From Deltaproteobacteria bacterium (lineage in GTDB: Bacteria > Desulfobacterota > GWC2-55-46), in assembly GCA_016213015.1 (NCBI GenBank), contig JACRCE010000073.1:1-42303 (forward strand): a DNA stretch of 42,303 bases, in the 5' to 3' direction. The notes beneath the pieces are model-generated. The model was given only the letters and a program-made list of their open reading frames with translations. It made no database searches and was not told the DNA's origin. The translations under genes were made by a program, and so were the position numbers. This document shows, piece after piece, positions 15,369-19,048 of this stretch; position 1 is the stretch's first letter; each line of letters starts with the position of its first letter.

Positions 15369-16883
15369 TTATTTCTGTTCCGCTACGAACAGTCCCTTGA
15401 ACTCGTCAAGCGCCTTGTTCAGTCTTTGCTTGAGATCGGCGTCTATGTTCTTCTTATCCCGAACCTCGTTTAATACGTCCGAGCGTCTGGATTCGAAGAA
15501 GTCCATAAGCCCCTCCTCGTACCTCTTGAGCGCGCTTGTCGGATATGAGTCGACGTACCCGTTGGTGGCCGCGTAGATTACGATGACCTGCTTTTCGACC
15601 GGAAGCGGCTTGTACTGCCCCTGTTTCAATATCTCCACGAGCCTTGCGCCCCTTGCAAGCTGTTTTTGAGTGGCAGGGTCCAAGTCTGAGCCGAACTGAG
15701 CGAATGCGGCAAGCTCCCTGTACTGGGCAAGCTCAAGCCTCAAGGTTCCCGCGACCTGCTTCATGGCCTTTATTTGCGCCGAGCCGCCGACGCGGGAGAC
15801 CGAAAGCCCGACGTTGATGGCCGGCCTTATGCCGGAGTAGAAAAGGTCGGTTTCAAGGTAAATCTGTCCGTCGGTAATGGATATGACGTTTGTCGGGATG
15901 TAGGCCGATACGTCTCCTGCCTGCGTCTCGATTACCGGAAGCGCGGTAAGCGAGCCGCCGCCAAGCTCGTCCGATAGTTTAGCGGCCCTCTCGAGAAGCC
16001 TTGAGTGGAGATAAAAAACGTCCCCGGGATATGCCTCGCGTCCCGGCGGTCTTCTCAAAAGGAGGGACAACTGTCTGTAGGCCACGGCGTGTTTGGAAAG
16101 GTCGTCGTATACGATGAGCGCGTGCTTGCCGTTGTCCCTGAAGTACTCGCCGATGGCGCATCCGGTGTACGGGGCGATGAACTGCAACGGAGCAGGGTGC
16201 GAGGCCGTTGCTGCGACCACGACCGTATAGTCCATTGCGCCGAACTGCCTGAGTTTTTCCACTATCTGCGCCACGGTGGACTGTTTTTGCCCGATGGCCA
16301 CGTATATGCAGAAGACGTCAAGACCCTTCTGGTTGATTATGGTGTCTATGGCGACCGCGGTTTTTCCGGTCTGCCTGTCTCCGATGATAAGCTCCCGTTG
16401 ACCGCGTCCGATGGGTATCATGCCGTCTATGGCCTTGATGCCGGTCTGGAGCGGCTCCTTGACCGACTTTCTCGCGACGATGCCCGGGGCCTTTATCTCG
16501 ACGCGCTTCATCTCTGCGGCTTCGATAGGCCCTTTGTCGTCAATGGGCTGGCCAAGGGCGTTGACGACCCGGCCCATGAGAGAGGCGCCCACCGGAACCT
16601 CGACTATCTTTCCGGTGCGTTTTACCGTGTCGCCTTCCTTGATCGTGTGGCACTCGCCGAGGATGGCCGCGCCGACGTTATCCTCCTCAAGGTTCAAGAC
16701 CATGCCGTATATCTGTCCCGGAAACTCCAACAGCTCTCCGGCCATGGCCTTTTCAAGGCCGTATATCCTGGCTATGCCGTCGCCGACCGAGATGACGGCG
16801 CCGACCTCTTTTATGTCAATCTCTTTTTCAAAGCCCTGTATCTGCGTCTTTATCAGCTGGCTTATCTCTCCGACGTTTATCAT
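15369..16883 (-). CDS. atpA: ATP synthase alpha subunit
   Basis: This 504-aa F1 alpha subunit has the standard length. It shows the nucleotide-binding GDRQTGKT at residues 168-175, the [16 protein letters not shown] segment and the [20 protein letters not shown] region. It binds non-catalytic ATP and forms the alpha3beta3 head. It starts 4 nt after the atpH stop, with AAGGGGCG ahead of the ATG. Confidence 0.97.
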
Positions 16884-16887
16884 GACT

Positions 16888-17433
16888 TCATATCGCCCCT
16901 TCCAATATTTTTTCCTTCATCCGTTCGATTTGAGTCTTGAGGCTGCCGTCGAGTATGGTGTTGCCGACCTTCACGACCATGCCCCCGATGAGCGAGGCGT
17001 CCTTGGAGCAGGAAACGGCCGCCTCCTTGCCGGTTGCCGCGCTTATCTTCTTTTTTATCTCGTCAAGCGCCGCGGCGTCCATGTCGACCGGGGATAGCAC
17101 GGTTACCCGAATCTTGCCGGAAATGTCGTCTTCAAGCCTTGAGTATGCCTCGGCTATATCGGCAAGGAGGCGCAGTCCGCGCGTCTTGACAAGGATGCCG
17201 AGAAAGCGCTCCACGGGTTTTGACAGCTTGAGAGAGGCCGAGACCTTTTCCGTCAGGCCGAGCCGGTCTTCAACGGGGAACATCGGATTCATAAGCGTCT
17301 TATATAGCTCCGGCGCGGATTCAAAGGCCGCGTACACGGTGCGGACTTCCTTGCCGTACGCGCCGACCTCGCCGGTTTCGGAGGCGATCTCGATGAGCGC
17401 TCTTGCGTATCTTCTTGCAACGGATGTCTTCAT
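16888..17433 (-). CDS. atpH: ATP synthase delta subunit
   Basis: This 181-aa OSCP/delta subunit joins the peripheral b stalk to the top of F1. It opens with [17 protein letters not shown] and has the conserved C-terminal [20 protein letters not shown]. It begins directly after the stop of the b'/b ORF with no spacer. Confidence 0.95.
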
Positions 17434-18414
17434 CTAATTGAGCCTTAGTTTTTCGATGTTGTCTTTTACGAGTCTCTGTTGATCCGTGGGCGTGAGTTCT
17501 TTCTTGAGTATTTCCTCGGCAAGCTTGGAAGCAATCTCCGTCGCCTCCCGCCGCAGTTCTATCTTCGCCTTCTTTATCTCCTGCGCCGCCGTTGCTCTTG
17601 CTTGTTCCATGAGCCTTGTCGCCGCGGCCTCGGCCTCTTTTATTATGCGTGCGCGCTCCGATGCGCCTTCTATCTCAAGCTCCTTTAATACGTCGGATAC
17701 GTTTTTTTCGAGTTCGCCGAGTTTGTCCCTGTACTCCGCGGCCCTTATCTCGGCCGTCTTCTTGGCCTCCTCGGCGCTCTTGAGAGCTTCTTCTATGTCA
17801 ACGCTTCTCTTGTTGAGGAGTTTGCCTATGACCTTCTTCCATATTATAACAATGCCGACGACAAGGATGGCGAAGTTAATAACCTTCCAGAGCATCCCGC
17901 TATCCGCCTTATGAGCGGCGCCTTCGCCGCCGGTTGAGGCCATGACAAGCGCGGGCGCGAGGGTAAGCGCAAAAAGCGCGAGCATTACGGCGATGTTTCT
18001 GTCAAGCATCTTCGAGGCTATCGAGCGTGATAAGCGATGAGCCTCGTCCTTGACCGATACCCTGATCGATGCGACGTTTTTTTCAAGTTCGGTCTTGAGG
18101 CGCGCCGCCTCTTTCTCAGCCGTGGCGCGCGCCTTGTCCAGCATATCTTTTTCGCAGGCGCGCGCCTCCTGCCTCAATCTGTTTTTTTCCTCAGCGCCTT
18201 TTATTGCCGCCTCTTTGAGCTTCTTTTCGTAAGCGGCTACGCCGTCAGCCACTTCTTTATCCATGTCGGAGGCCTTCTTGAGCGCGCCAACGGTCTTTTC
18301 GTCGCGTTCCGCAAGGAGTTTCAAGACGGGTTTGTACAGCAGTCTGTTGAGGATGGGCAGAAGGATTACGAATCCGATCATCTGATAAAGCAAGGTAATG
18401 TCGAGCGTTAACAT
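17434..18414 (-). CDS. ATP synthase b' and b subunits read as one ORF
   Basis: The single 326-codon frame contains two complete peripheral-stalk subunits. Residues 1-135 are b': membrane helix LLYQMIGFVILLPILNRLLY, a long charged coil, then the usual b' end (SIASKMLDRN). From the ATG at 18009 (17434-18009, 191 aa) it reads b: signal-like segment, short Gly/Ala loop, membrane helix VINFAILVVGIVIIW and a coil. No stop separates them. ATG 18414 is chosen for its GAGGAG site; the frame is open to 18519 without b'-like sequence. A single chain is hard to reconcile with the two parallel stalk helices, so internal initiation at 18009 or a sequence error removing a stop should be considered. Genes for a and c subunits are not here. 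Confidence 0.88.
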   Translation of the reverse strand: MLTLDITLLYQMIGFVILLPILNRLLYKPVLKLLAERDEKTVGALKKASDMDKEVADGVAAYEKKLKEAAIKGAEEKNRLRQEARACEKDMLDKARATAEKEAARLKTELEKNVASIRVSVKDEAHRLSRSIASKMLDRNIAVMLALFALTLAPALVMASTGGEGAAHKADSGMLWKVINFAILVVGIVIIWKKVIGKLLNKRSVDIEEALKSAEEAKKTAEIRAAEYRDKLGELEKNVSDVLKELEIEGASERARIIKEAEAAATRLMEQARATAAQEIKKAKIELRREATEIASKLAEEILKKELTPTDQQRLVKDNIEKLRLN

Positions 18415-18673: not shown

Positions 18674-19048
18674 TTACTTCGAGGGCTTCGTCTCCTCTTT
18701 TTTCTCATCGCGCTTTTTCATCATCTCTTCATGGTGCTTGGTCATCTCCTCATGATGCTTGGCCATATCGTCCATCATCGCGTCCGTCCTCCTCATCATC
18801 TGTTCGAGCGTCTTTTTCTGCTCAGGCGTGGGCGTGTGGTTCATATCCTTCATCATCCCCATCATGCCCTTCATCATGCCCATCATTTCCTTCATCATCC
18901 CGTGGAGCATCTTGTGCTTCTCCTGCATCTCCTTGGGGCCGCCCATGCCCATCATCCCGTGTCCCTCGCCCTTCATCTCGGCCATGGCCGGGGCAGCAAC
19001 GTATAGCATGACGGAGAAGAGCAGCATTGCAGCCAAGATTCTTTTCAT
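18674..19048 (-). CDS. Met/His-rich exported protein
   Basis: This 124-aa protein has a clear Sec signal peptide (MKRILAAM... cleavage after APAMA, about residue 23). The mature part is dominated by Met, His, Lys and Glu, with repeated MMGMMKGMMGMMKDMNH and the direct repeat KHHEEMTKHHEEMMKK. Met-rich clusters and paired His suggest periplasmic binding of copper/silver or another soft metal; this is inference from composition. It may also resemble CpxP/Spy-like helical proteins. AAGGAGG precedes the ATG, and a perfect TATAAT lies at 19083-19078 on the minus strand. It is a stand-alone unit, divergent from tmk. Confidence 0.83.
   Translation of the reverse strand: MKRILAAMLLFSVMLYVAAPAMAEMKGEGHGMMGMGGPKEMQEKHKMLHGMMKEMMGMMKGMMGMMKDMNHTPTPEQKKTLEQMMRRTDAMMDDMAKHHEEMTKHHEEMMKKRDEKKEETKPSK

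Follow-up and report, generated by a model that had tools for sequence, protein, structure and literature searches.

The closest counterparts of the locus studied here are the split genes atpX and atpF, which encode the peripheral-stalk subunits b' and b of F-type ATP synthase in related families of its class and phylum. These genes have the same domains in the same order, the same b' C-terminus, the same mature b N-terminus, and a signal peptide on b with an AXA motif; however, a stop codon lies between the two genes, and b has its own start and a basic n-region. Fused peripheral-stalk subunits are also found in mycobacteria, where a b-delta fusion functions uncut and has no internal signal peptide. 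This F-type ATP synthase protein (PDB 7jg5 chain d) joins b to delta, unlike the fusion described here, which joins b' to b.

Polyprotein maturation is rare in bacteria. One example from an energy-conserving enzyme is the cytochrome b/c1 polyprotein FbcH of Bradyrhizobium, which signal peptidase cuts at an internal signal sequence. FbcH belongs to a different complex, and what is left of the signal sequence can stay on its N-terminal product as a normal membrane segment; b', in contrast, should lose this remnant. In the proteolysis of RseA, the first cut is made by DegS, not by signal peptidase. Our literature search, whose coverage excluded most subscription journals, found nothing direct on FbcH or on fusions of b' with b; such a fusion may have been described before. 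In the core-E1 region of the hepatitis C polyprotein, a cytosolic protein is followed by an internal signal peptide, and a cut by signal peptidase and then an intramembrane cut free the upstream protein (PMC5402940); this system is viral and eukaryotic and is an analogy of mechanism only. RseA and RseP offer a cytosolic domain on a helix that runs from inside to outside, with a periplasmic cut before the S2P cut (PMC10470546), although that pathway serves signaling rather than the maturation of a subunit.

The fused gene and its distribution

We analyzed a window of 42,303 nucleotides in which, as a preliminary description of this DNA had claimed, b' and b share one uninterrupted frame. The fusion gene (17434..18414) is on the minus strand and runs from the ATG at 18414 to the TAG at 17436-17434; it encodes 326 amino acids with no internal stop, and GAGGAG lies directly 5' of the start codon. 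The Pfam family ATP-synt_B (PF00430) matches the protein twice above the cut-off, at residues ~7-137 (18396..18004) and ~175-303 (17892..17506). The gene is directly followed, on the same strand, by atpH (16888..17433), which encodes the delta/OSCP subunit (Pfam OSCP, 3e-42), and atpA (15369..16883), an open reading frame for the alpha subunit whose orthologs in genomes G007 and G016 are 88-90% identical.

Among 48 sampled genomes from the same order, the fusion gene was matched in 42, and it is free of stops in all 42. These represent 24 genera and 43 distinct proteins, each a single open frame of 307-385 amino acids; the relatives are roughly 36-58% identical to the window's protein. The usual arrangement of one subunit per gene does not hold here, as both ATP-synt_B domains share a single frame in all 43 proteins. 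Each genome has exactly two matches to PF00430 above the cut-off, both in the fused frame, and no separate b or b' was found above the Pfam cut-off in the 42 fusion-bearing genomes. The exception to the count of two is G034, which has two fused genes (L037 and L038) on different contigs. Both are open and they are similar to each other; they may stem from a mixture of strains or represent a genuine second operon.

The other six genomes of the order (G007, G016, G025, G043, G044, and G046) had no match to the gene, but they are not counterexamples, as each case is explained or uninformative. The relevant contigs of G007 (C39) and G016 (C178) begin inside atpA, right where the upstream fusion gene would be expected. 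G025, which is 61% complete, and G043 had no match to atpA, and G044 and G046 had distant atpA matches only. G043, G044, and G046 belong to one family (f4), and their completeness is 90% or higher. They have neither b' nor b, nor a close match to the window's F-type alpha subunit; these bacteria may lack F-type ATP synthase.

We surveyed the window's own phylum for the fusion and did not see it outside the order, either in the other families of the class or among the listed matches from a sample of 395 genomes of the phylum. In the other families of the class, b' and b are split by a stop in the matching genomes (G049 has a fragment only), and each of the full-length matches listed from outside the class has at least one stop between b' and b. 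The preliminary description had suggested a comparison with orthologous loci, and this comparison disposes of one of its own explanations, the loss of a stop codon through a sequencing or assembly error: the junction is open in the same way in 42 genomes of the order, which refutes it and makes its probability negligible. The fusion is genuine.

The junction compared with split genes

The b' domain of the window's protein (residues 1-139, 17998..18414) consists of an N-terminal membrane helix and a stalk helix that ends in KMLDR. Its length is the same in all full-length relatives: across our alignment of the 43 distinct fused proteins, b' has no internal indel and runs for 139 residues to an Arg (Lys in two), and a hydrophobic segment follows directly, without a linker. 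The MLDR of the fusion is the conserved b' C-terminus, whose split counterpart is KILERKVA and then a stop; more generally, split b' proteins of the class end in IAEKILERKAA or RKVA, three residues beyond residue 139 of the fusion. The ATG at 18009, which had been taken for the start of b, is the codon of M136 (18007..18009) and lies within this conserved C-terminus; the relatives have Ile, Val, Leu, or Met there.

Split b proteins of the class begin with a basic n-region, followed by a hydrophobic stretch, AXA, a loop rich in Gly, Glu, and His, and a membrane helix with the motif W-K/R-x-x-N-F. In the fusion, b' is followed by this signal peptide minus its n-region, a hydrophobic stretch of about 15 residues, and after it come a probably disordered loop and mature b. 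Split b' stops where the hydrophobic segment of the fusion starts, and the sequence of mature b is common to both. In one split locus (L042), b' and b share a reading frame, with one TAA between them. Because b' is free of internal indels and the hydrophobic segment follows immediately, in comparison with the split relatives, the fusion appears to have arisen when the stop and the n-region of b were lost, with the basic tail of b' taking the n-region's place. Not every b in the phylum has a signal peptide: in two split relatives (L068 and L069), the listed b open reading frame begins with MWWDLLWK and has none.

Residues 140-159 (NIAVMLALFALTLAPALVMA; 17938..17997) resemble a signal peptide, and A159 (17938..17940) would be the -1 position of a signal peptidase I site, with the cut between VMA and STGG. 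In the alignment of 43 fusions, the -1 position is Ala in 41 and Gly in 2, the -6 position (P154) is Pro in 38, and the -3 position (residue 157) is mostly small (Ala, Val, Gly, or Ser). The mean pairwise identity of residues 140-159 is 0.37, versus 0.46-0.59 for the helices, and only the loop is lower (0.33). Nearly fixed site positions in a variable segment suggest that selection maintains a signal peptidase I site and not a packed helix. A test that tolerates shifts in position found a site in 40 of the 43 fusions, versus 28 ± 3 (maximum 37) in shuffled segments; this is only moderately above the shuffles, owing to the high alanine content of the segment, and it is the aligned column that provides strong evidence.

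The putative N-terminus of mature b is a loop rich in Gly, Glu, and His (residues 160-172, 17899..17937) that varies in length, would lie in the periplasm, and is probably disordered. The membrane helix and stalk helix of b, with the second ATP-synt_B domain, make up residues 173-326 (17437..17898). AlphaFold2 placed helices at residues 3-136, 139-160, 173-306, and 309-325, with a break (pLDDT below 50) at 160-173, but this shallow model (5 sequences, pLDDT of 65.5, pTM of 0.25) says little about the fold. The genome encodes signal peptidase I (Peptidase_S26, E = 1.4e-54), with LepA encoded on the same stretch, and an RseP-like S2P protease (L077), in which we recognized by eye the motifs HELGH and LDGGH and what look like two PDZ regions.

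Explanations for the fused frame

We considered whether the chain might stay intact and serve as a stalk in which b' and b form a single chain. In its favor, none of the 43 distinct proteins has an interruption in the frame, and other fusions of stalk subunits are known, such as the mycobacterial b-delta protein. However, matches in the PDB align b' up to about residue 140 of E. coli b, which we take to sit high on F1. Estimated from helix rise, residue 139 of b' would be ~150-170 Å from the membrane, which itself adds ~35 Å, for a return path of the order of 190 Å, and the 37 residues from R139 to W176 reach at most ~133 Å when fully stretched. Since these residues are too few to lead from the F1-level end of b' to the periplasmic face, an uncut chain looks geometrically impossible, and the preliminary description was right to doubt it. 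An intact chain also gives no reason for the near-invariant Ala at -1, and we consider it very unlikely. The same description had proposed that internal initiation of translation yields b besides the fusion. Some in-frame ATG, GTG, or TTG is present near the junction in 29 of 43 fusions, and codons 136 and 144 of the window's gene are ATG, but the position varies, and the other 14 have none of these codons from four codons before to twelve after the end of b'; a conserved internal start codon was rejected on these grounds. The candidates in the window lack a Shine-Dalgarno-like sequence, in contrast to the GAGGAG at the true start. Internal initiation would also leave b' without a stop, and hence no free b', and the conserved AXA unexplained, which makes it highly improbable.

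As had been noted, a TGA overlaps the ATG at 18009 in another frame, and a programmed -1 frameshift into this TGA could end b'. The TGA is present in the window, but only 10 of the 43 fusions have an out-of-frame stop at that place, the -1 frame often continues without a stop for 50-250 nt beyond the junction, and just two of the 43 have any slippery heptamer nearby. With the conserved AXA again unexplained, we give a frameshift only the slightest chance. A further alternative keeps the cut by signal peptidase I but has no other: b' would retain the former signal peptide, now a membrane anchor at its C-terminus, and its stalk half would fold back or kink, unlike in known F-type stalks. The length of the hydrophobic segment would suffice for a membrane span (mean hydropathy of 1.9-2.9), and the sequence shows no other conserved site for a cut. 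Yet fusions and split b' alike conserve the C-terminal motif I-A-E-K-I-L-x-R, which suggests that b' makes its usual contact with F1/delta, and with ~113 helical residues from the membrane helix of b' to R139, the chain would seem to have no space to come back to the membrane. A single cut is therefore doubtful.

Proposed maturation of the precursor

We think it likely that the b'-b polyprotein is cut by signal peptidase I after A159 and that the tail of b' is probably trimmed later, by RseP or another protease. Separation by a protease was among the options in the preliminary description, and the near-invariant site after A159 supports it. Judging from the sequences, an entire order of uncultured bacteria probably synthesizes an essential part of the ATP synthase stalk as a polyprotein and cleaves it afterward.

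The single gene would give a precursor made up of b', the signal peptide, and b. The membrane helix of b' would insert with its N-terminus outside, and the b' stalk would remain in the cytoplasm; the basic C-terminus of b' (K-x-x-D-R) would act as the n-region for the retained b signal peptide, which would insert from inside to outside. Signal peptidase I would cut after A159 at the periplasmic face, giving mature b, whose N-terminus would match that in the split-gene relatives. With a cut at A159 only, the remnant of the signal peptide would still hold b' at the membrane, so a second step would be needed to free the C-terminus of b' to reach F1/delta. Release would most plausibly be by an RseP-type S2P protease and would leave b' near its ancestral length of 142 amino acids; RseP clears remnant signal peptides and acts after a prior periplasmic cut (PMC10470546). 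We infer cleavage of the fusion at both places, and less firmly at the second, where b' would be released from its C-terminal membrane tail. Maturation in precisely two steps, first by signal peptidase I and second by an intramembrane protease, as at the hepatitis C core-E1 junction, with ATP synthase assembly depending on the machinery that disposes of signal peptides, is a substantial possibility that we put forward tentatively.

The fusion would supply b' and b at a 1:1 ratio, and, as it is fixed across the order, it would tie the 1:1 stoichiometry of the stalk to proteolysis. If the precursor is cut, ATP synthase assembly would be a client of signal peptidase and possibly of S2P. The locus may also illustrate a route to polyproteins, in which a stop and an n-region are lost and the basic tail of the upstream protein replaces the n-region.

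Just upstream of the fusion gene, at 18674-19048 on the minus strand, the window encodes a small protein that is rich in Met and His and has a signal peptide (MKRILAAMLLFSVMLYVAAPAMA...). It has no NCBIfam match above the cut-off and is possibly a metal-binding periplasmic protein.
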